From the IMG/VR virus record IMGVR_UViG_3300044675_003062, positions 1 to 53,298 of that record: a DNA stretch of 53,298 nt, one strand, 5' to 3'. A program made the translations under genes and the position numbers. Within the stretch, counting starts at the first letter, position 1; every line of letters starts with the position of its first letter. The stretch comes from a virus. The notes under the pieces are model-generated. The model did not search any database. It was given only the letters and a program-made list of their open reading frames with translations, and was not told where the DNA came from. Positions 3,440 to 50,349 of the stretch are shown here, piece by piece.

Positions 3440-3789
3440 GCCAATGCCCGCAGGATGCTTGTGAGTTTCGCTTCGCTTTCTATGGCGAACGAAGCACATT
3501 GCCGCAGGCGAATCGCGTCGTCGCGTAACGTCTCGTCTGCTGCGAACCTTGTCCACCTGTCAATCGCCTCAACGTAGATCGGGCATCCCAACCGCTTCGC
3601 GTGTTCGATTGCTAGTTCGCGCTGCGGCAGTGGCCCTCCTGACCCGCTGGCAATGTCAACGTAGACGCCAAGCACACCGGCCCTATCTGCTTTAGCACGA
3701 TGCTGACAGGTCTCGATCTGACGCACGATGCCATGCCCCCAGGATTGCGTCCGCGAACTGACCCTTGCATAAATCACACACCTTGCCAT
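3436..3789 (-). CDS. stand-alone serine recombinase (resolvase) catalytic-domain protein
   Basis: 117 residues from ATG 3789, which overlaps the helicase stop (TGATG) and has GGAGG seven bases upstream. The N terminus CVIYARVSSRTQ carries the catalytic serine region of the resolvase/invertase family, followed by QIETC (the QxxxC helix), a YVDIASG strand and AIDRWTRF, corresponding to the family's DRLxR region. Only the catalytic core is present. The helix-turn-helix DNA-binding domain and the long C-terminal domain of large serine integrases are absent, and the protein ends about 20 residues after the core. It might act with another DNA-binding partner or be a non-recombinase regulator. The integrase of this phage is the separate tyrosine enzyme. 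Confidence 0.7.
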   Translation of the reverse strand: MARCVIYARVSSRTQSWGHGIVRQIETCQHRAKADRAGVLGVYVDIASGSGGPLPQRELAIEHAKRLGCPIYVEAIDRWTRFAADETLRDDAIRLRQCASFAIESEAKLTSILRALA

Positions 3790-5435
3790 CACAGCACCTC
3801 CATGCGTGGCGCACCCTGCCGCCCCTCGTTTATCACAAATAGATTCCGCCTCGTTCGCGTCACTGCGACGTAGGCAATACGGCATTCCTCGTCGTGCTGC
3901 ACGGCGTCCTCGTCAGCCTGCTCGACGCGGCGGCTCGTCGTCGTCAGCAGTGCCACGTTGTCAGCCTCCGCACCTTTCACCGAATGAATCGTGCCGACCC
4001 GTACCTTAGGCTCCGCTGCAAGCTCCGCTCCCCACTTGTCTGCCTGCCGTCGCCACTCCGCTCCGCGGTCAACCAAGGCAACCCACTGGCCGGAAGCGAT
4101 AGCGGCTTGCAGCATCTCGGTCGCACCGACGTCCTCAAGCTCGTTCGGAAAAATCAAATCCCACGCCGCCACCGTCTCGGGTTTCTTCCAAGCCGTCTTG
4201 GTGCCGCGTGCGATGACTGTCTCCTTCTCGCGGTTCTTCTGCGGGAGCAGCTCCAACGCCCGGCTCCACTGCACGCCCGTCACCGGCTCGCCTTTCTCCA
4301 AGGCGTAGAGAGCCTGCAGGCCAAGCGACCGGGATGTTGGCCCATCTGTGCTGCTCGTCCACTTAGCGGGCTTGCCTTGCAACGCCATCTCGGAGAACAG
4401 ACGGTTGGCTTGGTAGTTCGTGCGGGCGATCAGCAGCCAGTCCTCGCGAGGGTCAACGCGGTGAATGGCGTCCTCGATGGTGCCCAGTTCCGTGATGCTG
4501 CCCGCGTGGTCTGCCGGGGCGATCTTCCGGTCGAAGTATCCGGTGTGCATTCGCCGCAAGCACTTCTCGCCTAGCTCAAGGATCGGGGCAGGGCAGCGGT
4601 AGCTCTTTGGCATCGTCCGCTTCTTGACCGCGTCCCACGCAAGGAAGCACTCGCTGGTCGATCCAGCGAAGCCGTAGATAGCCTGGAACGGGTCGCCCAC
4701 GACGTAGCACCACTTGACTGTCGGTGCCGATGTGAGCCGCTTGCACGCCGCGTCGAGCAGCGGGCTGGCATCCTGCTGCTCGTCGAAAAGCCACGCCGAT
4801 ACCTCGGGCAAGTCGCCCTCTGGCGTGCGGTGGAACACGCCCTCGGTCGGGCTGACGCCCACCCCTGCAAACCTCATGAGCATGTCGGTGAAATCCATGC
4901 GGTCATCGAGACGCTTTTTCGTCTCAAAGCGTTCGGCTATCCGAACAATCGCCGCATAGTCTGGCACCGAGTCATCGACGCGGCGTGCCCGTCGCACCAC
5001 ATCGTCCAGCGGCTGAAGCGACGAGCGGCACAGCGACCAGCAATTCAATGCCGCCGCTACGGTGGGGTCGCCGATGTAGCTCTGCCGCCCTGAGTCGTCG
5101 TCCAGTTGCGTGCCCAGCTTCACACCGAGAGCCTCCGAAAGCCACTCGATGTCGGCCTGCTTCTCAGACAGCAACGCCCCTGCGGAAACGCCGAGGCAGC
5201 GGTACGCGGTGCTGTGAACGGTGCGGAACCAGCCCCGCACAGCCAGCAGGCTTTCGTCCACGCCCCACGCCTTCGCCGCCCGCGTCACGGCCTCGGCTCT
5301 CGCTGCCCGCGTGAAGGATGCGAAGCCCAGCTTGAGCGGGTCGCCGCCCAAAGACTCCAACGCGGCTTCCATGATCCGCAGCAACTCGGTCGTCTTGCCT
5401 GTCCCGGCACCGCCGATCAGTTGGGCAATTTGCAT
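3789..5435 (-). CDS. UvrD/PcrA-like superfamily 1 DNA helicase
   Basis: 548 residues, with the Walker A motif almost at the N terminus (GGAGTGKT, residues 8-15). The Q-rich segment and FASFTRAAR (motif Ia) follow, then LFDEQQDAS (motif II, DEQQD), VVGDPFQAIYGF (motif III), SYRCP (motif IV), VRVGTIHSVKGAEAD (motif V) and AYVAVTRTRRNL (motif VI). It is shorter than full UvrD because the 1B/2B insertions are reduced, as is usual for phage forms. It likely unwinds DNA during replication or recombination. ATG 5435 is the only sensible start because the Walker motif begins at once. It has no Shine-Dalgarno sequence and directly follows CCCTATAAT at the end of intergenic element A, which is unusual. 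Confidence 0.88.
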   Translation of the reverse strand: MQIAQLIGGAGTGKTTELLRIMEAALESLGGDPLKLGFASFTRAARAEAVTRAAKAWGVDESLLAVRGWFRTVHSTAYRCLGVSAGALLSEKQADIEWLSEALGVKLGTQLDDDSGRQSYIGDPTVAAALNCWSLCRSSLQPLDDVVRRARRVDDSVPDYAAIVRIAERFETKKRLDDRMDFTDMLMRFAGVGVSPTEGVFHRTPEGDLPEVSAWLFDEQQDASPLLDAACKRLTSAPTVKWCYVVGDPFQAIYGFAGSTSECFLAWDAVKKRTMPKSYRCPAPILELGEKCLRRMHTGYFDRKIAPADHAGSITELGTIEDAIHRVDPREDWLLIARTNYQANRLFSEMALQGKPAKWTSSTDGPTSRSLGLQALYALEKGEPVTGVQWSRALELLPQKNREKETVIARGTKTAWKKPETVAAWDLIFPNELEDVGATEMLQAAIASGQWVALVDRGAEWRRQADKWGAELAAEPKVRVGTIHSVKGAEADNVALLTTTSRRVEQADEDAVQHDEECRIAYVAVTRTRRNLFVINEGRQGAPRMEVL

Positions 5436-5651
5436 ATTATAGGGAGCCTTTTTTGAAGGTGCCGAACACAAAAAGGCGGGCCGACCCCCTGCCTTCGAAG
5501 GAACCAGATCGTATAAAACCATTCTCCAGCGGTTTTTCTCGGCAGCGTTTGCCCTTTGTTTCGTAGAGCGAAACGCTCCTTGCCGAGAAAACCGACCTCT
5601 TGCGAACCTCAAACGGGCACACTGTTTTTCGCCTATATAACAGGGAGGATT
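5436..5651 (-). ncRNA. intergenic element A: structured leader with terminator (homologous to B and C)
   Basis: A 216-base gap between the primase-polymerase stop and the helicase start. Read on the minus strand it begins with a hairpin (plus coordinates 5622..5643) whose loop contains ATATAGGCGAA. A conserved box TTTGAGGTTCGCAAG follows (5599..5613), then a 13-14 bp hairpin GGTTTTCTCGGCA / TGCCGAGAAAAACC (5531..5593), a terminator (5470..5493) and CCCTATAAT abutting the helicase ATG. The same order occurs in element B, and the 3' half in element C. Open frames cross it but resemble no known protein. It may be a regulatory RNA leader, a small RNA, or an operon-boundary module; the function is not known. 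Confidence 0.45.
5470..5493 (-). terminator. Rho-independent terminator in element A
   Basis: On the minus strand GGC(A)GGG pairs with CCCGCC with one bulged A, followed at once by TTTTTG. It lies downstream of the primase-polymerase gene and upstream of the helicase, so it would separate two transcription units or attenuate read-through. Confidence 0.6.
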
Positions 5652-7358
5652 TCAAGCCCGGTCGGACTCGTTCGCCAGACGGTCGAGGGCAGCGAACTCT
5701 GCCTTGCCCCAGACGACGTAGCTTTTCCGCGTTCCGCCGAGGTGCCGGAACTCGGAATGCGTGAAGTCTTTGACCTCGTCGCCAACCAAAGAGAGCAGCC
5801 GCCGCTTGAATGCCAGCCGCTCGCCCTCGTTGACCCTGTGCTGCCGTTCGATGTCCTCCCAGACTTTCCCCCACGCGAACCACAGCGTGCCGTCCTGACG
5901 CCACGCAGCGCGTCCTGTGGGGTCTGGGATGTCATCGTCGCTCGGCTGGGAAGCCTGGGCCAGCCGGTCATAGAGCCAACCGGCCAGAAGCACATACCGC
6001 AGGCTAGATGCTCCCGGCCATTCGTGCGTCACGTCGTCCAGCAGCTTGGCCTTCACGCCCCGTGCCGTCCGCTTCTTGGGGTTCTGGCTGCTCTTGTTGT
6101 CCTGCACTTTGTAGCCGCCGTCCCAGATTCGTTTCCAGCGGGCTGGCTCGTCGTCGAGCATGACTACCCCGGTCGCGGCCAGCACCGCCGCCGCCACCTT
6201 GGCTGCGGAGCGGTATTGGTCAACCGTCAGCGAGACGTTCCCGGTGCCGCTCGGCGTCCACTTCTTCCAAGCAGGAACGTGCAGCCGGTACTCAAGCGGG
6301 TCGCTGTGGACAACGGTGAGTTGCCATTCGCCCGGCCCCCACTCGGGATCGGAGTCGGAGTCTGGCACCAGCGGGGCGAAGCTCAAACCGATCTCGGTGA
6401 ACACCTTGGTGGCAGACGGTGCCTTGCTCGCCTTCTTGGCCTCGGCCACCGCCTGCGGCTGCTCGTCTGCCTGCTGGATGGCTGCGGCTTGATCCATGCC
6501 GCTGGCCCGCGTCTTGCGGACGAACGAAATGGCCGAGCGGAAGATCGCCACCACCTCGTCGTCAGCCATCGGCGGCTTGCACTGCAGAGTGTTGACCATC
6601 CTGACCTTCACCAAGAGGTCTTGCTGCTCTAGCTCGTCGTCGAGGTTCGGGCCGCTGCGGAACGCTTCGCGGATAGCAAACCGCCGCACCTCTTCGTTCC
6701 GCTCGCCAGACTTCACCGGCTGCTGGAGAACCAGCCGCGACGGCTTCCGCCCCGTGCCGACTCGCTGCCCGGTGCCGTCGTCGTTCCAGAGCAGATTGAC
6801 CAGCCGCTCGGGGAGAGGCTGTAGCTCCACGTCCTCGGGTGTCATGCCCGGCACCCACTCGTATAGCTTGCCCGTGTGGTGCGTGCTGGGCGGGATGACC
6901 GACTGCGCCGCGTTGCCGCCGTTGCCGATCCGCACCTCGATGCCCAGCACCTTTCGCACCGCGACGGCTGGCAGTTCTTCCGACCAGCGGAACAGCCGGT
7001 GCGGCCCGCGTCCTGCGGTGTAGGTTGGCGTCCAGATTTCTCCCAGCCCCAAGTCGTTCCACGCCTTGATCGCTTCAGGCCCGTCAAGCTCAACGTCAAC
7101 GACGCCGCTTCGCGGGCCAAGTAGCAGGCCGATATTGAGGGGCTTGCCAGCGTCGAACCACGACAGCACCTCGTCCTCGTCGCTCGTCGTGCGTAGCTGC
7201 CACTGATCGCCGACCGGGTGCTTACCCGGTGTCGCACAGTCGCGGCCCTTCCAGCAAGTGCAGACAGCCGGTTCGCTGACACCCCATAGCTTGACGATCT
7301 GCCAGCCGCGCGAGGCATACGCCGCAGCCAGTTGTCCAATACCTGTAGCCATTGCCAT
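5652..7358 (-). CDS. bifunctional primase-polymerase (Prim-Pol) protein
   Basis: 568 residues. The N-terminal AEP-type Prim-Pol domain shows WQIVKLWG, a cysteine cluster ending in GKHPVGD (about residues 28-50), the acidic catalytic strand VVDVELDG, GRGPHRLFRW and the late SVIPPSTHHTGKLYEW motif. A helical PriCT-like segment follows (NEEVRRFAIREAF ... VNTLQCKPPMADDEVVAIFRS). The remaining C-terminal 220 residues have no helicase motifs and are not recognised. It would synthesise primers for phage replication. The start chosen is ATG 7358 with GGAGG four bases away; ATG 7352 is an alternative. A strong terminator lies just upstream, so the gene must be read from its own promoter or by read-through. 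Confidence 0.85.
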   Translation of the reverse strand: MAMATGIGQLAAAYASRGWQIVKLWGVSEPAVCTCWKGRDCATPGKHPVGDQWQLRTTSDEDEVLSWFDAGKPLNIGLLLGPRSGVVDVELDGPEAIKAWNDLGLGEIWTPTYTAGRGPHRLFRWSEELPAVAVRKVLGIEVRIGNGGNAAQSVIPPSTHHTGKLYEWVPGMTPEDVELQPLPERLVNLLWNDDGTGQRVGTGRKPSRLVLQQPVKSGERNEEVRRFAIREAFRSGPNLDDELEQQDLLVKVRMVNTLQCKPPMADDEVVAIFRSAISFVRKTRASGMDQAAAIQQADEQPQAVAEAKKASKAPSATKVFTEIGLSFAPLVPDSDSDPEWGPGEWQLTVVHSDPLEYRLHVPAWKKWTPSGTGNVSLTVDQYRSAAKVAAAVLAATGVVMLDDEPARWKRIWDGGYKVQDNKSSQNPKKRTARGVKAKLLDDVTHEWPGASSLRYVLLAGWLYDRLAQASQPSDDDIPDPTGRAAWRQDGTLWFAWGKVWEDIERQHRVNEGERLAFKRRLLSLVGDEVKDFTHSEFRHLGGTRKSYVVWGKAEFAALDRLANESDRA

Positions 7359-7377
7359 CAGTCCTCCGTGTGCGGTG

Positions 7378-7420
7378 AAAAGAAAAGCCGGGGCGGTATG
7401 GTTCCACCGCACCGCCCCGG
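7378..7420 (-). terminator. Rho-independent terminator after the 7441..8214 gene
   Basis: Perfect 10-bp inverted repeat CCGGGGCGGT / ACCGCCCCGG (7388..7397 with 7411..7420), followed on the minus strand by CTTTTCTTTT. It ends the transcription unit that contains the SNF2-type helicase. Confidence 0.85.
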
Positions 7421-7440
7421 CGAAGAGCATCCCTGCCGTA

Positions 7441-8214
7441 CTAGGCATCCTGCCCAGCGTCAAACGTCGTCGCGATCCGCGTGAGCGGGTCGGTGTAGAG
7501 GCTCTTGATGACGAGTCCCTCTTCGCGGCTGATCGTGCCGATGAGTTCCGGCACGATCTGCGAGTAGTCGATGCCGCCCTTACTCGCCACCTTCTGCAGC
7601 GTCAGCGAGACGTTGACCCGAAAGTGTGCGACCTTCAGCCGCTTCACGAACGGGCAAACCGTCGCGAGCGATCCGGCCCCGACTGACAGCAGCACAGGCC
7701 ACGCTTCGCCCGGCTGGAGAATCGCAAGCGTGCGAGACTCCTTGATCCGCCGACCGACGCCGCCCTTGCCGCTGCCCCAGCCAAACGGCGAACCCTCCTT
7801 GCCCATCGCCTCCCAATCGTAGGTGCGGTCGCCGATGCGAAACGCAGCCAACTGCTCGGGGTCAATGTCGCCCAGCGAGTCGTTGGTGCGAATCGCCGTC
7901 TTGAGGTCATAGCTCGTCAGCACCGGACGCTGCCCCTTCGTGGGGTTGTCGCTGCCCCACAGTTGCCCGATAGGGGCGTAGTAGACAAGCAGGCCAGTGA
8001 TCGCCTTGCACTCCACTTCCACGCCGTCGCCGTTGACGTACTGCCACGTCCGACCGCCGCCCGCAGGGGTCTTAATGCGAATCAAGTCGCTGACTTGAAT
8101 CGTCTCGCCCGTCGCGAGATTGGCCTGCATCGCTTCCTTGAAATCACTGTCGCCGTGCAGGGCAAGAAATCCGGCTGCTGGCTCCAGCACTGCAATGTCA
8201 TTCTTCTTGGTCAT
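7441..8214 (-). CDS. conserved phage protein of the replication module (possible DNA-binding protein)
   Basis: 257 residues. The pattern DLIRIKTPAGGGRTWQYVNGDG followed by a 'GLLVYYAPIGQLW' strand and then PEQLAAF is seen in a widespread family of phage proteins encoded next to helicase and primase genes. A glycine-rich segment WGSGKGGVGRRIKES is conserved with it. The family has no experimentally established role that I can name; single-stranded DNA binding has been suspected because of its gene neighbourhood. It lies in one operon with the SNF2 helicase and a coiled-coil protein, and is followed by a strong terminator. Confidence 0.55.
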   Translation of the reverse strand: MTKKNDIAVLEPAAGFLALHGDSDFKEAMQANLATGETIQVSDLIRIKTPAGGGRTWQYVNGDGVEVECKAITGLLVYYAPIGQLWGSDNPTKGQRPVLTSYDLKTAIRTNDSLGDIDPEQLAAFRIGDRTYDWEAMGKEGSPFGWGSGKGGVGRRIKESRTLAILQPGEAWPVLLSVGAGSLATVCPFVKRLKVAHFRVNVSLTLQKVASKGGIDYSQIVPELIGTISREEGLVIKSLYTDPLTRIATTFDAGQDA

Positions 8215-8255: not shown

Positions 8256-8693
8256 AGCCACAGTTCGACTACGCAGCCGAACCTCCACAAATTGCCCAAC
8301 CAATCCTTCAAACCGCGTGCCCTTGACCGCATCCTCTAGCGGGCAGTCTTTCTCCTTTGCACGCTCGACCAACCACGCCTTCACCGTCGCCGGATTCAGC
8401 GTCACAGCGTCCTCAAGCTTTTCAGCTTTCGCGGCCTTGATGAGTTCCTCGCGGTTTGCACCGGCCAGGGACAACCTCAACGCCTCGTCGATCCACCACG
8501 TCTTGCCAGCAACTCGGCACCCGTCGAGGCCGCTCAGTCCAAGCTGCTCCGCAGCCTGCGACTCAAGTTCTTCAAGCTCCTTGTCCATCGCTTTCAACTT
8601 CCCCGCGACAACGTCGCGTGCAGTCTGCTGCTCGACCAGCCGTGCCAGCAGGGCGGAAAGCCCTTCCGGCGGGGCCAGTTCTTCGACACTCAT
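8253..8693 (-). CDS. coiled-coil hypothetical protein of the replication operon
   Basis: 146 residues from ATG 8693, in an ATGA overlap with the helicase stop and with AAAGGAG seven bases upstream. The first 60 residues form a charged coiled coil (LLARLVEQQTARDVVAGKL ... KELEELESQAAEQLG). A small alpha/beta region follows. The stop codon sits inside one copy of the recurrent gene-end motif. Its tight coupling to the SNF2-type helicase suggests a partner or loader, but no family was recognised. Confidence 0.6.
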   Translation of the reverse strand: MSVEELAPPEGLSALLARLVEQQTARDVVAGKLKAMDKELEELESQAAEQLGLSGLDGCRVAGKTWWIDEALRLSLAGANREELIKAAKAEKLEDAVTLNPATVKAWLVERAKEKDCPLEDAVKGTRFEGLVGQFVEVRLRSRTVA

Positions 8694-10063
8694 GCCACCG
8701 CTCCTTTCCTTGGCGATAGTTTGATCAGCACCGCATCGACAACATTTCGACGCTCGCGAAGTGCCCCGTACACCTGTTCGTCCACCGTACCTTGCGTGAC
8801 AAGGTGGTAGTAACGGACGCAACGTGTCTGGCCCGGTCGCCGCAGCCGGGCCAAGGATTGTTCGTACTCGCCGAGTGAGAAGCCGAGCGAGTAGTAGAAG
8901 CAGTACGCGGAGCGACTCAGGTCGATGCCCGCCCCGCCGCTTTGAATCTGCACGCCGATGATCGTGGCGTTGCCAGCCTGCCATTCAGCAAGCTGATTGT
9001 GCTCGCCAGACAGCTCGGCGTAGGTTCTGCCCAGCCGCCTTGCCATCGCACCGACTTCGTTCAAGTCGGTTCTGAAGCGACAGAACACGACCACCGGCTC
9101 AAGCTCCGACAAGTCGCCAAGTCGATCCTCAAGCGTGGCTGCCTTGCTTGGCATCCCGTCGATCAGCACCGTGCCCGCCTCATCGGTGCGAGCGTAGCCG
9201 CCGGTCGCCTGCTGCAGCCGCAGCAGCTTGGTCAATGCGTTGCTGACCGTCACTGTGCCAGCGTCAATCTCGGCGGTCATGTCCCGCTCAAGGTCGCGGT
9301 AGTATCTCGCCGCCTTGCCGTCGAGCGGCACCGGCAGCACTTCGTGAATCGCCTCGGGGAGATCAAGCACGTCGTCGATGTTGACACGCCAGATGTACGG
9401 GTCGGTCTTGGCTGCAAGCTCGTCTTGCTTCAACCACTTCTTGACCTTGGAAGGGAACCGCTGGTCGCAGTCCGCATAGCGGCGGCGGTACGCGACGTAG
9501 CTCGGGCCGAACACCTCGGGCCTCAAGAATCGGAACTGCCCATAGAAGTCGAGCGGGCTGTGCGGGATTGGCGTGCCGGTGAGGCAAAGCCGCTTCGCCT
9601 GCGGTTGTGCCTGGGCGAACTTCCACAGCCATCTGCTCGCTCGCCCGGTCGGGCTTTTGATTCGGTGCGACTCGTCAATGATGATCGCGTCCCACTTGAT
9701 CCCGCCGATTGCCTTGGCAAGGTCGCCTCGCCAGACTGAATCGACGTTCACGATGGCACACAAGCCTCGGCTCGATGCACCGCTGCACCGCATCGCCTCG
9801 GCCTTGAGCCGCTTCGCTCTCGTCGCCGTGGAGCCGTCAACCAGCAGCACGGGGTGAAGCGGGCCGCAGCCCAACGCCAGCAGGCTTGTGATGCTCTTGC
9901 CCGTGCCCATGTCCATCGCCAGCATCGCGGCGTCCATCTCGCTGGCCCATCTGGCCGCCGCGGTTTGGTGCTGCCACGGGATGACCGAGCCAGTTTCTAG
10001 CAGGCCGATCTGCTTGACCCACGCCGGGCCAACCGCAATCGGGCACACAATCAGAATGTTCAT
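8690..10063 (-). CDS. SNF2/DEAD-type superfamily 2 helicase with displaced motif Ia
   Basis: 457 residues. Seen in order: NILIVCPIAVGPAWVKQIG at the very N terminus, Q-type region PWQHQTAAARW, Walker A MDMGTGKS, IIIDESHRIKSP (motif II, DESH), LTGTPIPHSPLDFYGQF (motif III), VVVFCRFR (motif IV), IQSGGAGIDL (motif V) and QSLARLRRPGQ (motif VI). In related phage helicases the 'VLIVCPxxVxxxW' strand normally follows Walker A. Here it precedes it, and only VLLVDGSTATRAKRL follows. Start is ATG 10063 with AAAGGAG six bases upstream. It probably remodels or unwinds DNA at replication forks. Confidence 0.85.
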   Translation of the reverse strand: MNILIVCPIAVGPAWVKQIGLLETGSVIPWQHQTAAARWASEMDAAMLAMDMGTGKSITSLLALGCGPLHPVLLVDGSTATRAKRLKAEAMRCSGASSRGLCAIVNVDSVWRGDLAKAIGGIKWDAIIIDESHRIKSPTGRASRWLWKFAQAQPQAKRLCLTGTPIPHSPLDFYGQFRFLRPEVFGPSYVAYRRRYADCDQRFPSKVKKWLKQDELAAKTDPYIWRVNIDDVLDLPEAIHEVLPVPLDGKAARYYRDLERDMTAEIDAGTVTVSNALTKLLRLQQATGGYARTDEAGTVLIDGMPSKAATLEDRLGDLSELEPVVVFCRFRTDLNEVGAMARRLGRTYAELSGEHNQLAEWQAGNATIIGVQIQSGGAGIDLSRSAYCFYYSLGFSLGEYEQSLARLRRPGQTRCVRYYHLVTQGTVDEQVYGALRERRNVVDAVLIKLSPRKGAVA

Positions 10064-10705: not shown

Positions 10706-11719
10706 CTAGACCGCCAACTCAATCGCATTGGCCCACGCCCGCTCTTTGAAAGCGTGCGAGGAACCGAAAAGCACAGAGCGGAACTTCCGCTCGGCACGAA
10801 CGTCGCCCTTGCCGGTGACGCGGAGTTCGTGGTCAGCCCACTCGCTCGCCGCGTTGTAGGCCGTCCAGACGTTGGCCCCGTGGTTGCCCTCGTTGGTTGG
10901 CATGGCGAACCGATCCCAGAGGGCGGTCACCAGCTTGCCTCGGCTCTTGTCGCTACGGTTGCCGACCAGATCGCTGAAGTAGTCCGACACCTGCTGTGTC
11001 GAGACCGACTTCGCCATCATCTGCCGAGCCGCGAGGCCGAACCCCTCATGGCAGTTGTTGATGACGCCGAGGCACTCGCGAGCCTTCTCCACACGGCGGG
11101 ACAAGCCGCCCGCCGTGTGAAACAGCTTGAGTCCCAGCGGCAAGCCGTCCGCATTCTTGGCCTTGTCGGCCATCCCGATAGCGAGCCGCAGCGTGTTGGC
11201 ACAGACGACCCGCACGCTGGTCGGAAACAACCGCACCGCGCCGGTGCCGTCGTGGCTGTTGGTGATGAGAACGTACTTCTCCAGCACGTCGCGGTCGGTC
11301 ACCTCGACGTGGCCGGGGAGCTTGGCGAGCATCCAGACCTTGCGGCCCTGCCGCAGCGAGCCGCAGGTGTGCCACATTGCCATTGGATCATCGCCGCCCA
11401 CTACCTCATCCATCCATGCGAACGCTTCGCGGTTCTGAAGCGGCTGGTACCGCAGGCCGACAGCACCCAGAGCCATGCCGGTGTCGGCACGGTAGGTCGC
11501 CCGGTGCGTGCTGATCGGCAGATACCGCTGGTCAGCACCTTCGCCCATGTCAGCGGCGAGGTCGGTCAGTCGAACGTCCCAGTCCAGCCCGGCGATCCGC
11601 AAGGCGTCAGCCGAGGTCTGAGCCTCGCCAACCACCGTGCCAAACCCGTGCCAAGCTGGCTTGTAGGCGAACATCGCCGAGCCTTGGGCCTGCGTCGTGA
11701 AGTCAATTTCGTGAGCCAT
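10706..11719 (-). CDS. DUF932 phage/plasmid-like protein
   Basis: 337 residues. The N-terminal PAWHGFGTVV, the central YQPLQNREAFAWMD, the LPGHVEVTDRDVLEKYVLITNSHDGTGA block and RVVCANTLRLA are the signature of the DUF932 family (phage/plasmid-like protein), found in many tailed phages, plasmids and integrative elements. Its biochemical role is unknown. Ribosome site GAGGACTACGAAA precedes ATG 11719. It is followed by a strong terminator and preceded by two copies of the gene-end motif, so it may be read as the last gene from the promoter at 12118..12145. Confidence 0.85.
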   Translation of the reverse strand: MAHEIDFTTQAQGSAMFAYKPAWHGFGTVVGEAQTSADALRIAGLDWDVRLTDLAADMGEGADQRYLPISTHRATYRADTGMALGAVGLRYQPLQNREAFAWMDEVVGGDDPMAMWHTCGSLRQGRKVWMLAKLPGHVEVTDRDVLEKYVLITNSHDGTGAVRLFPTSVRVVCANTLRLAIGMADKAKNADGLPLGLKLFHTAGGLSRRVEKARECLGVINNCHEGFGLAARQMMAKSVSTQQVSDYFSDLVGNRSDKSRGKLVTALWDRFAMPTNEGNHGANVWTAYNAASEWADHELRVTGKGDVRAERKFRSVLFGSSHAFKERAWANAIELAV

Positions 11720-11812: not shown

Positions 11813-12064
11813 TCAGGCGTTCTCTTTGTCGGCGAGGTTGAACCAGCCCTCGACCGTGTCTTTGATCAGACCGTCACCGGCCCGCGTCAGCCGCGTGCCA
11901 AGCTCGTCCTCGCAGAAGTTGACTAGCGAATAGACCTCGTCCAGCATTGCAATCACGTCGTCGCTGGTCGTGCCGTTGTCCATCAGCCCGCCGTCGCCGC
12001 AGGCGAGATGCTCAAGGGCCTCGGTCACGTCGGCCAGCTTCGCGGTCAGTTGCTTGATCGTCAT
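11813..12064 (-). CDS. small early protein, first gene after promoter P-D
   Basis: 83 residues, acidic, with a leucine-patterned helix (LADVTEALEHLACG) and a second acidic helical region. Start ATG 12064 follows ACGGAGAACGAACG, a leader shared almost base for base with the gene at 14604..14867. The upstream sequence is an excellent sigma70-like promoter with an operator-like dyad, so this is probably an early regulated gene. No family recognised. Confidence 0.6.
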   Translation of the reverse strand: MTIKQLTAKLADVTEALEHLACGDGGLMDNGTTSDDVIAMLDEVYSLVNFCEDELGTRLTRAGDGLIKDTVEGWFNLADKENA

Positions 12065-12091
12065 CGTTCGTTCTCCGTTTCGTTGTCCTGT

Positions 12092-12107
12092 CGCGGTGTC
12101 CGCCGCG
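12092..12107 (-). promoter_or_regulatory. conserved 5' leader hairpin (P-D transcript)
   Basis: CGCGG / CCGCG stem with a six-base loop, located between the predicted start site and the ATG at 12064. An identical hairpin occupies the same place after promoter P-B (14894..14909), although the flanking bases differ, which suggests the hairpin itself is kept. Confidence 0.55.
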
Positions 12108-12117
12108 TCATGGTTTC

Positions 12118-12145
12118 ATTATAGCCTATCGGCTTTTGGCGTCAA
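12118..12145 (-). promoter_or_regulatory. sigma70-like promoter P-D with operator-like dyad
   Basis: Minus strand: TTGACG (12145..12140), 16-base spacer, TATAAT (12123..12118). A 7-bp inverted repeat AGCCTAT / ATAGGCT overlaps both hexamers, as an operator would. An AT-rich tract AAAAATATTTTTTGG lies just upstream in the position of an UP element. Promoter P-B has the same architecture and nearly the same spacer. Confidence 0.8.
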
Positions 12146-12189
12146 TAGGCTTTCCAAAAAATATTTTTGGGTCGTTTTCCCCGGTGTTT

Positions 12190-12321
12190 TCACCGGATCA
12201 GCCTCAGGACGGTGTCGATTGCCTCGGCTACGAGGGGGGCCAGCCGCCCCCCGGTGCCCAGCTCCTGGCCGAACCGAACCAGCGAGAGGGCCAGCACGGC
12301 GTTGTTCCAAGTCAGCTTCAT
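12190..12321 (-). CDS. very small hypothetical protein
   Basis: 43 residues from ATG 12321 in an ATGA overlap with the gene upstream. Amphipathic helix MKLTWNNAVLALSLVRFGQ followed by a second helix. The overlap and a CCGGTG / CACCGG hairpin directly after the stop suggest it is the last gene of this operon. Function unknown. Confidence 0.45.
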   Translation of the reverse strand: MKLTWNNAVLALSLVRFGQELGTGGRLAPLVAEAIDTVLRLIR

Positions 12322-12602
12322 TGCTTCTGCTCCTTCGCGGCCTGCCTCGCAGCCTTGCGTGCCGCCGCCTTCGCCTGTCGGGCGAGCAACGTGTCGGCCT
12401 GCTGCGAGAGCCACGCTGCGAAGCCCTGCGCCTCATGCGGCGTCATGTAGATGGACGCTGGCTCGCTGTATTGCTCAGTCACAGAACGCGACGGGTGAAT
12501 CCTCACCGCGACCGTCTCGGAGCAGCGGTGTGCCTCGATAGCGGCGGGAATGCGAACCCACTTCGACTGCGGCTTGAAGAAATGCTTTGAAGTCCGTCTC
12601 AT
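12318..12602 (-). CDS. hypothetical basic protein
   Basis: 94 residues with ATGA overlaps at both ends. The N-terminal two thirds look like a small alpha/beta domain (KWVRIPAAIEAHR, VAVRIHPSR). The C terminus is an alanine/lysine/arginine-rich helix (AKAAARKAARQAAKEQKQ) that could bind nucleic acid. No family recognised. Confidence 0.55.
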   Translation of the reverse strand: MRRTSKHFFKPQSKWVRIPAAIEAHRCSETVAVRIHPSRSVTEQYSEPASIYMTPHEAQGFAAWLSQQADTLLARQAKAAARKAARQAAKEQKQ

Positions 12603-13105
12603 GCCATCACCTCATTGTTGATCGGCCAGACATACGGAAGGTCATCTGGCTCGGCCCATCCGAATCGGCCATACCACGCCGCGTCTTTGCGGAGAAGGTT
12701 GCTGCGATGGCTGGCGTGGAAGCCATGCAAGCCGAGCCACGGCGGCGACGATACAGACGTGCCTTTCTTGCCGTACACGAACTCTTGAGCGTCGTCGTCA
12801 TATCGAAGGTCGTTCAGCCAATCGTAGACCGCAACGAATTGATCGAGCAGCGAGTCCTTGTAGCCTCTTGCTCGCCACTCTTTGCACACGATCTGACCGT
12901 AGACCGCGAGCGACATCTCATGCCCTTGCCATATCCTCGCCGCGGGGTGGTTGGCCCACGACGATTTCTTTGGCTGGTGCTGACCGACCGGCACGCCGAG
13001 AGCGAGTAGCAACTGCTTCGTCTCGACTCGCTGCTTGCCAAGCCGCTTTGTGTCGAGGCACGCTGCGGAGTTGCGGAACGATGGATAGGGGAGGAAGGTT
13101 TGAAT
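12599..13105 (-). CDS. pyrimidine-dimer DNA glycosylase/MSMEG_6728-like protein with an ATT start codon
   Basis: 168 residues. The N terminus [start]QTFLPYPSF, then SAACLDTKRLGKQRVETKQL, is the signature of the MSMEG_6728/T4 endonuclease V-related family, whose members normally begin M-x-TFLPYPxF. At the position of the methionine this gene has ATT (13105..13103), with AAAGGAG eight bases upstream. The reading frame is open from there, and the nearest in-frame ATG or GTG comes after the conserved motif. The upstream HNH stop (TAA) is two bases before the ATT, so coupling is likely. HPAARIWQGHE and the C-terminal WYGRFGW follow as expected. The role may be repair of damaged pyrimidines; activity is not certain. 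Confidence 0.75.
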   Translation of the reverse strand: MQTFLPYPSFRNSAACLDTKRLGKQRVETKQLLLALGVPVGQHQPKKSSWANHPAARIWQGHEMSLAVYGQIVCKEWRARGYKDSLLDQFVAVYDWLNDLRYDDDAQEFVYGKKGTSVSSPPWLGLHGFHASHRSNLLRKDAAWYGRFGWAEPDDLPYVWPINNEVMA

Positions 13106-13120
13106 GATTATGTCTCCTTT
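13103..13120 (-). promoter_or_regulatory. ribosome binding site deciding the ATT start
   Basis: Minus strand AAAGGAG (13120..13114), eight-base spacer containing the HNH gene's TAA stop, then ATT (13105..13103). The spacing is ideal for initiation at ATT and for no other start-like codon apart from the neighbouring ATA and ATC. Confidence 0.65.
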
Positions 13121-13527
13121 GAAAGATGCCAGCGGATCGTGGAATGATCCAGACCTAGCGACTTGGCAATCCCGTACATTGATGAACCGCTCTTGCGCAT
13201 TGCGATCATTCGGCTTGCTAGCGGATGCCGTTTTGAAGGCCTGCCGACTGGCCTGCCTTTTGCGACTGCATCACGCATGTTGTCGACTTGTGTTCCAACA
13301 AAAAGGTGCGAGGGGTTGACGCACATTGGGTTGTCGCACTTGTGGCAAAGCATTTCGCCCTTAGAAAGGGCTCCGATAACTAACTCGTAGATGTATCGGT
13401 ACGCCGGTTTGTTTCTGAAGTACGGGCGTCGGTGCTTTTTGTTGCGGGACGTACCGCCCGCCCACAGCCAACACGCATCTGGTTTTGCTATCAGAACAAA
13501 CCGAGAGCATTCGTCTGGCAGTTGCAT
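13108..13527 (-). CDS. free-standing HNH homing-type endonuclease
   Basis: 139 residues from ATG 13527 (overlapping the upstream stop as TGATG). The HNH core is LCHKCDNPMCVNPSHLFVGTQVDNMRDAVAKGR, with the zinc-binding cysteines and catalytic histidine of the phage group-I-type HNH family. The C-terminal MIAMRKSGSSMYGIAKSLGLDHSTIRWHL is a helix-turn-helix for DNA recognition. Bases here are less GC-rich than in the neighbours, which fits a mobile nuclease inserted into the early operon. Its last codons supply the ribosome site of the next gene, which now starts at ATT. Confidence 0.85.
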   Translation of the reverse strand: MQLPDECSRFVLIAKPDACWLWAGGTSRNKKHRRPYFRNKPAYRYIYELVIGALSKGEMLCHKCDNPMCVNPSHLFVGTQVDNMRDAVAKGRPVGRPSKRHPLASRMIAMRKSGSSMYGIAKSLGLDHSTIRWHLSKET

Positions 13528-13796
13528 CACTTGTCCCCCTTGTCGAAAGCCTCGGTGATCGTCTGCACCACATCGGCCACGGCATCCTCATGAGCGAGGC
13601 AATCCAGCCGCAAGTATTCACTGTCGCTCGTCGCGTGCTGTGCCAGCGTGGCTTCCAAGTCATCCATCGCACCAAGCAGATCGCAGTCAACGCAGCCTTG
13701 ATCGACTAGCCGCAAGGCGGCAAGCACCGCCTCGGCACGGTCGTTGTCTGGCGTCTGGTAGTTGCTGTTGCGAATCACGGGGTAGGGTTTGGTCAT
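13527..13796 (-). CDS. hypothetical acidic early protein
   Basis: 89 residues from ATG 13796 (ATGA overlap with the preceding gene). Mostly helical and acidic, with the pattern AEAVLAALRLVDQG then DDLEATLAQH and a C-terminal helix VVQTITEAFDKGDK. No family recognised. Overlaps on both sides support that it is real. Confidence 0.5.
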   Translation of the reverse strand: MTKPYPVIRNSNYQTPDNDRAEAVLAALRLVDQGCVDCDLLGAMDDLEATLAQHATSDSEYLRLDCLAHEDAVADVVQTITEAFDKGDK

Positions 13797-14032
13797 GCCG
13801 TCACCTCCGAATCGCTGCGAATCTGCTCGGCCCACGTTTCAATCTCAGCCGTCTTGCCATTGGCAACCCATCGCAGATGCTCGGCGTCGTCCGCGTAGCC
13901 GTCGCTCAAGATGATGTCAAGGTATTCTCGCAGCCGCCGCGAGTGCAGCACGCGGTGCTTTGCCTCTGCGTACAGACCGGCGCGGTCGAAGTGAATCAAG
14001 CCGCCGGGGTGAACTCGCCACATATCAGTCAT
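13793..14032 (-). CDS. hypothetical early protein
   Basis: 79 residues from ATG 14032, preceded by ACGGAGGACTGACG. Contains two predicted helices (ILSDGYADDAEHLRW and TAEIETWAEQIRSD). It follows a copy of the gene-end motif at the stop of the previous gene. Function unknown. Confidence 0.55.
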   Translation of the reverse strand: MTDMWRVHPGGLIHFDRAGLYAEAKHRVLHSRRLREYLDIILSDGYADDAEHLRWVANGKTAEIETWAEQIRSDSEVTA

Positions 14033-14048
14033 CGTCAGTCCTCCGTTT

Positions 14049-14065
14049 GGGTTTCCGAACAATCA
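14049..14065 (-). repeat. gene-end motif, copy 4
   Basis: Minus-strand TGATTGTTCGGAAACCC; TGA is the stop of the 14063..14254 gene. Confidence 0.7.
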
Positions 14066-14254
14066 GCCCCACGCTCCGTATAGCTCGTCGCAGAACGAGC
14101 AATACGCCTGCTCGTCGATCAGCTTGGCAAGCCTCGCCAGCCCTGCAATCGTGATCGTCGTCGCCTCGTCGCGAGTGTCTGTGGCGATGCCACGCAGCAC
14201 GTCGCGGAGTTGGTCAGCCGTGAGGCTGGCGATTCTAGTTTCGAGGTTGGTCAT
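14063..14254 (-). CDS. hypothetical early protein
   Basis: 63 residues from ATG 14254, preceded by AGCGGAGACGCGACG. Helical throughout (IASLTADQLRDVLRGIATD), with a CSFC pair near the C terminus. Its stop codon is the first three bases of a gene-end motif copy. Function unknown. Confidence 0.55.
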   Translation of the reverse strand: MTNLETRIASLTADQLRDVLRGIATDTRDEATTITIAGLARLAKLIDEQAYCSFCDELYGAWG

Positions 14255-14270
14255 CGTCGCGTCTCCGCTT

Positions 14271-14287
14271 GGGTGTTTGAACAATCA
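14271..14287 (-). repeat. gene-end motif, copy 5
   Basis: Minus-strand TGATTGTTCAAACACCC; TGA is the stop of the 14285..14533 gene. Confidence 0.68.
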
Positions 14288-14533
14288 GCTAGCCAGTATT
14301 TTTTCCGCCGCTTCCTTCGCGACCTTGACACTTCTGCAAGAACGCCCCCGCGACGTTGTGCCGTCAGCGTTTATGACGACAACGTCGTAGAAGCGAGTCT
14401 TACGCCAGCCTCGGAGGTTGTCGCCAATCGTGCCCCAGCTTCCGCTCACGGCAACCTTGCCGCTGGCGTGCCGATACCACGGGCCGCTGCCCGGTGTCCA
14501 CTCGTCGTGCTTCGTCCAAGCCTTGCTGGTCAT
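14285..14533 (-). CDS. hypothetical early protein, possible small beta-barrel
   Basis: 82 residues from ATG 14533 (AAGGGACGAACG upstream). The sequence alternates short strands (GKVAVSGSWGTIGDN, TRFYDVVVINADG) before a C-terminal helix (VAKEAAEKIL), consistent with a small beta domain. The stop lies in a gene-end motif. No family recognised. Confidence 0.55.
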   Translation of the reverse strand: MTSKAWTKHDEWTPGSGPWYRHASGKVAVSGSWGTIGDNLRGWRKTRFYDVVVINADGTTSRGRSCRSVKVAKEAAEKILAS

Positions 14534-14561
14534 CGTTCGTCCCTTGTGTCTTGAGTCGTGC

Positions 14562-14588
14562 AGCCCCGCCGCCCTGTGCGGCGGGGCT
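14562..14588. repeat. GC-rich intergenic hairpin
   Basis: Perfect 11-bp inverted repeat AGCCCCGCCGC / GCGGCGGGGCT with a five-base loop, between the gene-end motif copy 6 and the start at 14533. No T-run follows on either strand, so it is not a typical terminator; it may stabilise or process the early mRNA. Confidence 0.6.
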
Positions 14589-14589
14589 T

Positions 14590-14606
14590 GGGTATCCGAA
14601 CAATCA
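14590..14606 (-). repeat. gene-end motif, copy 6
   Basis: Minus-strand TGATTGTTCGGATACCC; TGA is the stop of the 14604..14867 gene. Taken here as the consensus form. Confidence 0.72.
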
Positions 14607-14867
14607 CCAGATGCGAACCGCTTGTGCCTGCTTCTGCGAAGCAGCGTGGGGGTCGCGGCTGATCGCTTCCAGCGTCGTCGCCAGCGTGTCGAGGATTGCA
14701 TTCAGCCGGGGCAGCACGTCGGTCTCGGCGTTGACCATGTTCGACTTGCTGCCGTCGCCGTAGGGGGCGGCAATCTTCCGCAGGATGGCCGCCCGCATTG
14801 CAATCAAGTCGCAGCCCGCATCCTCAATCGCCTCGACCAGCGTGTCGCGTTGTTCGTTGAGTCGCAT
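14604..14867 (-). CDS. hypothetical helical early protein, first gene after promoter P-B
   Basis: 87 residues, predicted all-helical (DTLVEAIEDAGCDLIAMRAAIL; LPRLNAILDTLATTLEAIS). The leader ACGGAGAACGAACG before ATG 14867 is the same as that of the gene at 11813..12064, and both follow the same promoter type. Probably the first gene expressed from P-B. No family recognised. Confidence 0.6.
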   Translation of the reverse strand: MRLNEQRDTLVEAIEDAGCDLIAMRAAILRKIAAPYGDGSKSNMVNAETDVLPRLNAILDTLATTLEAISRDPHAASQKQAQAVRIW

Positions 14868-14893
14868 CGTTCGTTCTCCGTTTCAAGGCGTCT

Positions 14894-14909
14894 CGCGGTG
14901 TCCGCCGCG
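14894..14909 (-). promoter_or_regulatory. conserved 5' leader hairpin (P-B transcript)
   Basis: CGCGG / CCGCG stem with the same loop as at 12092..12107, between promoter P-B and the ATG at 14867. Confidence 0.55.
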
Positions 14910-14920
14910 TTGACCCCTAC

Positions 14921-14948
14921 ATCATACCCTATCGGCTTTTGGAGTCCA
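14921..14948 (-). promoter_or_regulatory. sigma70-like promoter P-B, paralogue of P-D
   Basis: Minus strand: TGGACT (14948..14943), 16-base spacer, TATGAT (14926..14921). The spacer CCAAAAGCCGATAGG is shared with P-D. The left dyad arm AGCCTAT is kept and the right arm is imperfect (ATAGGGT). AAAAATATTTTTGG lies upstream like an UP element. It looks weaker than P-D. Confidence 0.7.
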
Positions 14949-14969
14949 TAGGCTAAACCAAAAATATTT

Positions 14970-15193
14970 TTCCCCTATAAATAAGGGCTTTTTCGAGGCA
15001 GGGGAGGGCAAAAAGGGGGCGGACGCCCACCCCCTGCAAAACCGGGATCGGCAAAAACCATTGTCGCGGGGGTTTTCTCGGGTCGCCAAACCCCTGCCGC
15101 CAAACAGGTTAGGCACGCTGCCGCGAAAACCTATCCCTTGCGAACCTCAAATGGCCCCTCTGCGATTCGCCTATATACAAGAGGGATTTTCGC
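14970..15193 (-). ncRNA. intergenic element B: structured leader with terminator (homologous to A)
   Basis: Together with P-B this fills the 326-base gap 14868..15193, which has no convincing gene. On the minus strand the order matches element A. First comes a hairpin (15156..15185) with CCCTCT / AGAGGG arms and the same ATATAGGCGAA loop. Then come the box TTTGAGGTTCGCAAG (15137..15151), GGTTTTCGCGGCA with a partner CCGAGAAAACC, ATGGTTTTT, and a terminator (15010..15034). The first hairpin arms differ between A and B yet still pair, which argues for RNA structure. Function unknown. Confidence 0.45.
15010..15034 (-). terminator. Rho-independent terminator in element B
   Basis: Minus strand GGGGGTGG pairs with CCGCCCCC (one U-G pair), four-base loop, then TTTTTG. 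Downstream of the HTH regulator gene at 15194..15439. Confidence 0.75.
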
Positions 15194-15439
15194 TCAGGCC
15201 CGCTTCTTTCGCCGCCGGGGCGTCTTGCCCGCCGCGATCCAGACCGGGTTGCCGCTGGTCTCATGGATGTGCGGCTTGAGCAGCGGTAGCTCATGCTCGG
15301 CCACCGCCACGATCCGCGTGCCGTCCGCGAGGATGCCGACGCCGTGAGCCTTCGCTACTCGTCGCACCGTTGGCGATGAGCAGCCAAGCCGCTTCGCCGC
15401 TACTGCCATTGAAAGGTACACCACGCTGCCGTCTCCCAT
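15194..15439 (-). CDS. small helix-turn-helix DNA-binding protein
   Basis: 81 residues from ATG 15439, preceded by GGAGGTG six bases upstream. LSMAVAAKRLGCSSPTVRRVAKAHG is a clear winged or MerR-type helix-turn-helix. The C terminus GKTPRRRKKRA is strongly basic. A small regulator located between the integrase region and the early promoters is a reasonable candidate for binding the AGCCTAT / ATAGGCT dyads, but this is inference from position. It is transcribed toward the early genes and followed by element B. Confidence 0.7.
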   Translation of the reverse strand: MGDGSVVYLSMAVAAKRLGCSSPTVRRVAKAHGVGILADGTRIVAVAEHELPLLKPHIHETSGNPVWIAAGKTPRRRKKRA

Positions 15440-15486
15440 GCCGTTCACCTCCATTCGTAGCATCGCGTCAATAGGAAAGCAAGTCG

Positions 15487-15708
15487 TCAGCCGAGCTTCG
15501 ACCGCTTGCGTCCCGACAGGGTGGGGTCGCGTTCCAGATACTCCTTGAGATTCTTCGCAACCGACTTGCGGCTGACGGCCCAGGCTCGACCGTTCAAACG
15601 GAACCCCTCCAGCGTTCCGTTCTGGATCATTTTTATGCACCAAACATCCGTGCAGCCAAGCATTTCCGCTGCGACCGGAACCGAAATCCAATCGGGGGCA
15701 GTTTGCAT
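15487..15708 (-). CDS. excisionase-like helix-turn-helix protein
   Basis: 73 residues from ATG 15708. WISVPVAAEMLGCTDVWCIKMIQNGTLEGFRLNGRAWAVSRKSV has the excisionase/MerR-type winged helix layout: helix, turn, recognition helix, then a beta wing ending in an R-x-W segment. A KNLKEYLERDP tail follows. It is divergent from, and next to, the integrase gene, which is the usual place for a recombination directionality factor. The sister HTH gene lies 48 bases downstream. It may also repress the divergent integrase promoter. Confidence 0.7.
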   Translation of the reverse strand: MQTAPDWISVPVAAEMLGCTDVWCIKMIQNGTLEGFRLNGRAWAVSRKSVAKNLKEYLERDPTLSGRKRSKLG

Positions 15709-15871: not shown

Positions 15872-16729
15872 ATGCTTCTCACTGACCTGTTCGCCAATTA
15901 CTACCGCCCGCTCCGATTGCGAGGACGTTCAGACCAAACGTGCCGACTTTACTTCTGCACAATCCGCACATTCGGCAAGTGGCTGCAGTACCCACCGACT
16001 GTGGATGACCTGTCCGATCTTATGCTCAGTCGCTTCTTGGAAGAGCGAGCCGCGACTCGCAGCCCCTACACCGCTGAGAAGGAACGCACGCAGCTTGTAT
16101 CGCTCGCACGGTTTGCGCGGGATCGTGGGATTATCCAGACGATGCCGGAAGTACCGCCCGCTCCGCTGCCCGAGCGGGTGCCGCGTGCGTTCACACTGCC
16201 CGAGCTGCAAGGCATCATGCGTGCCGCTGCAGCGACTCGCGGAACGGTAGGACACGTCGCGGCTGGCGTCTGGTTCACCGCGTTGGTCAGTGTCCTTTGG
16301 GAGACGGCAGAGCGGATCGGTGCGGTGCTTGAGTGCGTGCCGGGAGACTTCACCGAGCCGCATCTTCTCGTCCGTGCCGAGGTGCGGAAGGGCGGGAAGC
16401 GGGACAAGGCGTACAGATTGTCCGAACGCACCGCTGCCTTGGTGCGTCAGGCGTCTGGCGAGCGGCGTATCTTTGAGTGGCCGCAGGCCCGCACCTACCT
16501 GTGGGCCAAGTACGCCGACATCGTGGCCCGTGCTGGGCTAGGGAAGGGCAGGCACCTGTCGTTCCATGCCCTACGCCGCTCGGCGGCATCTCACTTCCAG
16601 AGTCTCGGCGGCGATGCCGTAGCCCTGCTTGATCATTCCAACCCGCGCATCACGCACCGCTGGTATCTCGACCGTCGCATGACTGATCGAGGCCCGCAGC
16701 CGTGCGACTTGCTGCCTGACATATGGTGA
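15872..16729 (+). CDS. int: tyrosine recombinase (phage integrase)
   Basis: 285 residues and the only protein gene on the plus strand. The N-terminal 90 residues form a SAM-like core-binding domain (FANYYRPLRLRGRSDQTCRLY). The catalytic domain shows ETAERIGAVL with Arg148, a lysine hairpin around residues 173-177, HALRR with His232 and Arg235, DHSNPRITHRWY with His255, and nucleophile Tyr265. All catalytic positions are intact. The start is ATG 15872, where homology begins; in-frame upstream codons overlap the divergent regulator and are unlikely to be coding. It would integrate the phage at an attachment site, probably the tRNA-like locus 160 bases downstream. Confidence 0.9.
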   Translation: MLLTDLFANYYRPLRLRGRSDQTCRLYFCTIRTFGKWLQYPPTVDDLSDLMLSRFLEERAATRSPYTAEKERTQLVSLARFARDRGIIQTMPEVPPAPLPERVPRAFTLPELQGIMRAAAATRGTVGHVAAGVWFTALVSVLWETAERIGAVLECVPGDFTEPHLLVRAEVRKGGKRDKAYRLSERTAALVRQASGERRIFEWPQARTYLWAKYADIVARAGLGKGRHLSFHALRRSAASHFQSLGGDAVALLDHSNPRITHRWYLDRRMTDRGPQPCDLLPDIW

Positions 16730-48832: not shown

Positions 48833-49705
48833 TCACTCCAGCCAATACATCACAGACCGCATCGCTGGGTCGAGGTACAGCCGATGCCCTGTCCTCTGGG
48901 CAATGGTCGCATGAAAGCCAACGTGCTCGCAGTCCGCACCGTCGTACGTTCCCGCGAGGTATGCCTGCGTCTCGTAGATAGCCAGCCCACCGAACGCGGA
49001 GCAGACCGGGATCGGCGGCGAGCCAACCGGCGGCACCCATGAATGTTTCCAGCCACCGAGGCCAGCGGTGTAGTCATCGAAGGTCGAGTTGAGTCTCAGT
49101 GCCCATGCGTCATAGTGCAGCCATGACTTTGTCCTCGCATGCTCCATGATCGACACGCTCGCCACGCCGTAGGCATCTTCAGTCGCTGCCAGCGACCCCA
49201 CGCCGTGCATCACGCCAACGTGGCTCCAGCCTCCCCACGCATCCCAATCAATGACGAGCGTGTAGGTCGAGTCTGGGCAGTGCTGCCGCACCCACTCCTG
49301 GCACGCGGTGCGGTACTCGGCTAGGGCAACCGTTCGCGGGCCTGCGAACTCTGCCGAGAACTGCTGACGGTTGAGCGTCTGAGTGTGAAACGTCGCCTGC
49401 GGGTGGGCATCGCAGAAGCTCGCCAGCACCGTTTCGGTGTCGTCCGTGTTGTCGTTCGTCTCGATGTGCAGCCGCCACGACCGGCAGTCGCCGACAAGCT
49501 GCAAGAGTCGCATCAGATTGGCGTCGAGCGATCGCCCGCAGTTCCTCGCCAGCCCGACGATAGCCACGTCGGCATCGGCCCATGCTTCGACGCCGACGGA
49601 ATGCACTCGCGCGAAGTCCGCTGCGAAGTGATCGAGCGGGTAAATCAGTTCGTCAGGCACCCGCTGCGATTTTGGCGAGCTTGGCAATGAGGCTGAGTCG
49701 GTCAT
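48833..49705 (-). CDS. glycosyltransferase-like protein (GT-A fold)
   Basis: 290 residues from ATG 49705. After a 40-residue leader, DVAIVGLARNCGRSLDANLMRLLQL, 'IETNDNTDDTETVLASFCDAHP' and 'YTLVIDWDAWGGWSH' (a DxD-like site) give a nucleotide-sugar binding core. 'AFGGLAIYETQAYLAGTYDGADCEHVGFHA' forms the acceptor side. It overlaps the next glycosyltransferase-like gene by 53 bases. Likely adds sugar to a phage or host surface structure. Confidence 0.72.
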   Translation of the reverse strand: MTDSASLPSSPKSQRVPDELIYPLDHFAADFARVHSVGVEAWADADVAIVGLARNCGRSLDANLMRLLQLVGDCRSWRLHIETNDNTDDTETVLASFCDAHPQATFHTQTLNRQQFSAEFAGPRTVALAEYRTACQEWVRQHCPDSTYTLVIDWDAWGGWSHVGVMHGVGSLAATEDAYGVASVSIMEHARTKSWLHYDAWALRLNSTFDDYTAGLGGWKHSWVPPVGSPPIPVCSAFGGLAIYETQAYLAGTYDGADCEHVGFHATIAQRTGHRLYLDPAMRSVMYWLE

Positions 49706-50288
49706 CGTATTGCGTGACGTGGACGAAGTAGGGCTTGTCTGGCTTGTTGATGTCGCCGGGGTGGTGATTCCAGACCGGCGGCAAAAACGTCGTCTGCCCG
49801 TAGAGTCTGGTGGGGCTGTCAAGTTTCCCGTGCGGCCCCGGCTCGACCACGTAGCCCATCAATCGCATGATGGCCGCTTGCTCCCACCACGGGTGGTGAA
49901 CGAACTCCGAGCCGTCCATCCAAGCCTGCTGCAGCGTCGGCCTCATCTCCTTTGACACGACCCACACGCCGCAGTTCGGGACGCGGCCGCACTCGGTAAG
50001 GTGCTCAACGACCGCTTGGCACTTCCCCGGCTGTAGTTCGGCAATGATGTCTGCACCCGGCCATGCGATCACGACATCAGCGTCGAGCCACGCCACCACG
50101 TCATACCGATTCAGGGCGGCATACATTGCTGGCAGTTTCTGCCATGACGCTGGCCGCTCGCCAATAAGACTCACGGCAATGAAGTCGTGGCCGTGCCGCT
50201 CGGCATACGCTTCCATCAGTGGTGCGGTGTGCTTTGCCATCGCGGCGTGCGTGGCACCGCTCCAGCCGGTGAGGATCAGAGACTGCAT
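49653..50288 (-). CDS. galactosyltransferase-like protein (GT34/GMA12-type)
   Basis: 211 residues from ATG 50288 (AGGAG upstream). Start MQSLILTGWSGATH, then HGHDFIAVSLIGERPASWQKLPAMYAALNRYDVVAWLDADVVI with the metal-binding DAD, NCGVWVVSKEMRP, and a late FVHVTQYDDRLSLI. This matches the short galactosyltransferase fold of the GMA12/MNN10 family. It probably acts with the adjacent GT-like enzyme in one glycan pathway. Confidence 0.75.
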   Translation of the reverse strand: MQSLILTGWSGATHAAMAKHTAPLMEAYAERHGHDFIAVSLIGERPASWQKLPAMYAALNRYDVVAWLDADVVIAWPGADIIAELQPGKCQAVVEHLTECGRVPNCGVWVVSKEMRPTLQQAWMDGSEFVHHPWWEQAAIMRLMGYVVEPGPHGKLDSPTRLYGQTTFLPPVWNHHPGDINKPDKPYFVHVTQYDDRLSLIAKLAKIAAGA

Positions 50289-50349
50289 GCGATGCTCCTG
50301 CCGCTGCCCGCCCCGCCGCTTGGGCAACGGGGGCGGGCAACGGGGCTTC

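Follow-up and report, generated by a model that had tools for sequence, protein, structure and literature searches.

Two similar sigma70-like promoters, here called P-D and P-B, lie in a linear IMG/VR virus record of 53,298 bases (the window, that is, the whole stretch of DNA that was analysed), and they raise the question of whether a single regulator controls both and which protein that would be. Besides a portal protein and an integrase, the window codes for helicases, a prim-pol and a DNA polymerase III beta clamp. We consider it likely, jointly with the explanation set out below as a whole, that an uncultured temperate phage uses the P-D/P-B region for its early control.

P-D and P-B head two early transcription units

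The promoters and the genes that follow them are:

12118..12145, minus strand: P-D core promoter, TTGACG-16-TATAAT, 11/12 consensus
12157-12170, minus strand: A/T tract preceding P-D, resembling an UP element in position and composition only
12062..12077, minus strand: first P-D gene, Shine-Dalgarno with start codon
11813..12064, minus strand: first P-D gene, 83 aa, no family (ORF and family search)
10706-11719, minus strand: DUF932 gene, downstream of P-D
8690-10063, minus strand: SNF2-type helicase, downstream of P-D
5652-7463, minus strand: prim-pol, downstream of P-D
3789-5612, minus strand: UvrD-type helicase, downstream of P-D
14921..14948, minus strand: P-B core promoter, TGGACT-16-TATGAT, 9/12 consensus
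14958-14971, minus strand: A/T tract preceding P-B
14865..14880, minus strand: first P-B gene, Shine-Dalgarno with start codon, identical in sequence to those at P-D
14604..14867, minus strand: first P-B gene, 87 aa, no family
13108-13530: HNH endonuclease, among the small genes behind P-B
12599-13012: Pyr_excise match, among the small genes behind P-B

An earlier note on this DNA had described two sigma70-like promoters with 16-base spacers, the better hexamers at P-D, an upstream A/T tract and the ribosome site ACGGAGAACGAACGATG common to both first genes, and this description holds. P-D and P-B both have -35 and -10 hexamers at the sigma70-type distance of about 16-18 bp, and they are the sole matches in the window to a combined promoter/spacer pattern for which 0 matches are expected in shuffles. 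The 52-bp promoter repeat is 85% identical between the two and is a strong signal, the dyad within it being weak by itself; a 63-bp repeat that includes the gene starts is 71% identical. Among 68 candidate promoters, the mean A+T content upstream of the -35 box is 0.75.

Some 30 contigs of related uncultured phages carry such promoter-plus-leader units. These relatives were gathered through relatives of the DUF932 protein, a hairpin pattern scan, an HTHb profile scan and a looser leader scan; the hairpin scan is biased to the exact hairpin, a selection of which the DUF932 and HTHb loci are free, and the viral scan with the exact core mixes real promoters with chance matches. In a motif scan with a leader filter, exactly two units were found in the window and in each of five full-length relatives (G002, G014, G017, G021 and G022). 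Together with the position of P-D ahead of DUF932, helicase and prim-pol genes, this supports the two-promoter early regulon that had been proposed, in which P-D heads the replication genes and P-B the run of small genes. The layout is common, not the only one: the full-length, more diverged G007 has one unit, along with operator-like sites lacking that hairpin, and the shorter records L011, L008, L012 and L065 have three or four.

Elsewhere in the window, a DNA polymerase III beta clamp gene lies at 50977-52113 and a weak glycosyltransferase match, under cut-off, at 49653-50405, both on the minus strand. A recurrent junction element, TGATTGTTCGGA, often with a Shine-Dalgarno sequence and start codon right after it, occurs on the minus strand at 14054-14065 and 14595-14606, with variants at 4940-4951 and 52522-52533 (4 matches in the window vs 0.20 expected), and is also present in relatives.

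Operators match within a phage and differ between phages

Each promoter carries a candidate operator:

12123..12151: P-D operator, AGCCTATTG-N11-CGATAGGCT, half-site CTATYG twice, inverted, over the -35 box, the spacer and the -10 edge
14926..14954: P-B operator, half-sites CTATGG (left, changed) and CGATAG (right)

The shared dyad AGCCTAT-N15-ATAGGCT of the earlier note is indeed present at both promoters, perfect at 12123-12151 and with one mismatch at 14926-14954, yet as a signal it is weak alone (3 matches at up to 3 mismatches in the window vs 0.76 expected). Across 28 phages and 58 operators, what is conserved is the core CTATTG-N11/12-CGATA, with N5 in some: CTATTG occurs in 52/58, CGATA in 52/58 and both in 49/58, and among these 49 the half-site spacing is 11 in 29, 12 in 11, 5 in 8 and 10 in 1. 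Perfect 7-bp arms are found in only 2/58 operators, so that a search for AGCCTAT-N15-ATAGGCT, as proposed earlier, would miss nearly all relatives. The same numbers leave unsupported the suggestion that a degraded right arm at P-B gives differential repression.

Operators differ between phages and match within a phage, with a distance in the first set of 0.267 within vs 0.487 between. The P-B operator lies at a distance of 0.252 from the P-D operator of the same phage vs 0.475 from those of other phages (permutation p = 1e-5). The early promoters of a given phage thus share their operator, as expected of a repressor-operator system. The next ~10 transcribed bases track the promoter locus instead, those of P-B being at 0.227 from P-B of other phages and at 0.743 within the same phage. 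Operators that match within a phage, next to first transcribed bases that follow the locus, thus point to one trans-acting regulator per phage that would read both operators, rather than to a simple or recent duplication. That P-D and P-B resemble each other as a tandem duplication of promoter and first gene, with no shared trans regulator, would fit the 71% identity of the 63-bp repeat, but the locus-specific transcribed bases and the tracking of HTHb by the operators (below) speak against it, and we give this reading little credence.

HTHb is the candidate repressor

Upstream of P-B lie two small genes, an integrase gene and a non-coding stretch:

15194..15439, minus strand: HTHb (81 aa), a MerR/Xis-like winged helix and the proposed P-D/P-B repressor (co-variation, prediction, fold)
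15454..15482, minus strand: weak HTHb promoter, TTGCTT-17-TACGAA, half-operator CCTATTG (15469-15475) in the spacer (by eye)
15487..15708, minus strand: HTHa, 73 aa, excisionase-like (place, and excisionase model below cut-off)
15872..16729, plus strand: tyrosine integrase, divergent from HTHa-HTHb
14975..15193: conserved non-coding stretch from HTHb to P-B, holding GTTTTCGCGG-type repeats and a core in the form of an imperfect inverted repeat

The order integrase-HTHa-HTHb-P-B is kept across relatives. The start codon of HTHb was set by the Shine-Dalgarno sequence GGAGG. HTHa, which the integrase gene adjoins, scores 22.1 bits against the excisionase model TIGR01764 (cut-off 28.8) and is probably the excisionase (Xis), and the stretch at 14975-15193 is a possible attP.

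Both HTH proteins had been named as the nearest repressor candidates, and of the two it is HTHb that the comparison retains. Distances between HTHb proteins correlate with those between operators (Mantel r = 0.45, p = 0.0005, n = 12), also when the integrase is given (partial Mantel r = 0.42, p = 0.0015) or HTHa is given, in tests on small sets of phages with common ancestry, with operators and distance measure picked by the analyst. Neither HTHa (p = 0.10) nor the integrase (p = 0.11) is significantly linked to the operators in the same 12 phages. When HTHb was scanned in sliding windows of 9 residues, the lowest p-values (0.001, r 0.45) fell in the HTH, while a window near the N terminus gave a higher r of 0.53 with p = 0.003, and other windows also reached p < 0.05. 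The HTH segment follows the operator in the expanded set as well (n = 20, r = 0.30, p = 0.0007), in which the phages with the closest operators differ, in several cases, in the recognition helix. In L096, HTHb shares only 59% with that of the window, yet the SSPTVRR segment is identical and the operators are close.

The recognition-helix classes of HTHb include SSPTVRR and APITVSR. Helix classes were also written down from operators before ten new HTHb sequences were read. The class was correct in G020, G021, G022, G416, G419 and G425 and partly right in G424, and G417 agreed with a prediction marked weak; this prediction is not independent of ancestry, since related phages have HTHb and operator in common. 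A specificity region that changes with the operator is thus seen by co-variation only. Taken together, these comparisons point to HTHb as a repressor that would read the P-D and P-B operators. CCTATTG is present at the HTHb promoter in 9/17 of the HTHa-HTHb junctions listed, and this half-operator in its own promoter suggests that HTHb may be autoregulated.

HTHb reached the curated cut-off of no family. Its predicted model (mean pLDDT 74.9) has the order beta-HTH-wing-helix, the same order of elements as in its nearest solved folds, the RacA, BldC and MerR regulators and Xis, to which it is matched with weak E-values (best Foldseek E 0.034). MerR-activated promoters have 19-20 bp spacers. An HTHb that worked as a MerR-type activator on the promoter spacer would agree with the MerR-like predicted fold and with a site over the spacer, but of 57 spacers counted here 44 have 16 bp, 12 have 17 bp and 1 has 15 bp, and the P-D hexamers are near consensus, so that we regard activation as still more improbable than duplication.

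Small excisionase-type DNA-binding proteins that lie beside an integrase and act on early promoters are also found among P2-type phages, as Cox. The corresponding protein of phage 186, Apl, is both excisionase and transcription regulator, with direct-repeat sites one helix turn apart (PMC7498355). HTHb is similar in kind, size and place, and is predicted to act on early promoters. It might therefore be a Cox/Apl-like dual excisionase-regulator, or a lytic (Cro-like) repressor, the lysogeny repressor being another gene, and its weak match to TIGR01764 (20.4 bits, under the cut-off of 28.8) and the nearby integrase are in keeping with this. However, HTHa is the better excisionase candidate by place and model score and is separate from HTHb, and the CTATTG/CGATA half-sites, unlike the Apl sites, form an inverted pair within the promoter. 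Among the ORFs scanned in the window no HTH_3 match, as a CI/HTH_3-type repressor would give, passed the cut-off; as the scan covered a subset of all ORFs, another repressor could exist in the window. On balance we find the dual or Cro-like reading unlikely, although less so than activation or duplication.

A conserved hairpin at the inferred start of both transcripts

The leaders contain:

12092..12107, minus strand: P-D leader hairpin, CGCGG-CGGACA-CCGCG, from 10 nt past the -10 box, at ~+3/+4 of the inferred transcript
14894..14909, minus strand: P-B leader hairpin, identical 16 nt

The hairpin CGCGGCGGACACCGCG lies inside an identical 18-bp repeat (12091-12108 and 14893-14910), which bears out the identical leader hairpin reported before. 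Given little weight at that time, it is, judging from the alignment, among the most conserved and compensating parts of the system. Across the set it starts 9-11 nt past the -10 box; in 29 distinct hairpins 97.2% of cells pair, changes on both sides are found in 4/5 stem pairs, and 0/500 shuffles attain the covariation score, in an ungapped alignment from which six false candidates were removed by eye and in which related rows can inflate covariation. Folding energy alone is weak evidence for it (z = -2.33 at P-D and -0.89 at P-B). The hairpin matches no Rfam family at gathering score.

GGAC in the loop is mostly kept as stems change, and the CGGACA loop is retained on different stems in L097 and L098; other loops occur in L018, L102 and L108. 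The predicted place of the hairpin is the 5' end of the mRNA, where it may be a 5' stabiliser, a protein site or an antitermination site. Each early operon of lambda begins with a single short hairpin, that of nut/boxB. The resemblance is evident in the 5-bp stem, the 6-nt loop, the single copy heading each early operon and the GGAC mostly kept while stems vary, but here the hairpin is at the inferred 5' end, no boxA-like sequence was seen by eye beside it, neither operon has an arginine-rich first gene (by eye) and some relatives have other loops. An antitermination role like that of nut/boxB therefore seems unlikely to us, compared with that of a 5' stabiliser or a site for another RNA-binding factor. 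We also considered the GGA of the loop as a possible CsrA-type binding site; one leader has CAGACA instead.

The same leader hairpin is found in L059 near 8756, after a promoter whose spacer contains a different dyad, GTATTGCC-CGTC-GGCAATAC. Downstream of HTHb relatives in L102 and L108 there are, by eye, promoters and leaders able to form hairpins with other loops.

A model for early control

Comparison across the phages shows a conserved architecture, operators that match within a phage, co-variation of HTHb with the operator and compensatory changes in the hairpin. The explanation that we favour, and think likely as a whole, is that HTHb would bind the inverted half-site pair CTATTG ... CGATAG over the -35 box and spacer and block RNA polymerase at both early promoters, repressing rather than activating them. 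The P-B accessory early operon and the P-D replication operon would thereby both be held silent, in the lysogen most likely, and the lone half-site in the weak HTHb promoter may allow a weaker autoregulation. Upon loss or absence of HTHb both promoters would fire, giving mRNAs whose first ~20 nt would fold into the conserved hairpin, possibly with a function of its own, ahead of the shared ribosome site. Counting against this model, a half-site spacing that varies (11, 12 or 5) is unusual for a rigid dimer, and HTHb resembles excisionases, some of which are also transcription regulators.

Cluster A mycobacteriophages have immunity repressors with operators and stoperators and diversified specificities (PMC6550527, PMC9283540). 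As there, repressors and sites appear to diversify into immunity specificities. Unlike the stoperators, which are genome-wide, we found two promoter operators and a half-site, and HTHb is a different, small winged helix.

Host search and significance

A scan of genome contigs with the HTHb profile gave one weak match, without the leader, in a Fuerstiella record. Further searches in that record's phylum gave no support for a host there: the leader pattern had 4 matches vs 4 for the reversed control, the HTHb profile had none, and an integrase search of 392 of its genomes gave two matches at 30-35% identity. Integrase, HTHb and promoter had no match in the annotated phage records searched, and among the titles and opening lines of abstracts covered by a literature search none described a P-D/P-B/HTHb system. 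It is possible, if rather doubtful, that HTHb represents a family of winged-helix immunity repressors of ~80 aa that is new, and the hairpin an uncatalogued 5'-terminal GGAC-loop element read by a phage or host RNA-binding factor.

For these uncultured temperate phages a candidate repressor, an operator code and targets are now proposed. The comparison has also brought to light a leader RNA that is conserved among them. Natural specificity variants make the recognition of DNA by this repressor directly testable.
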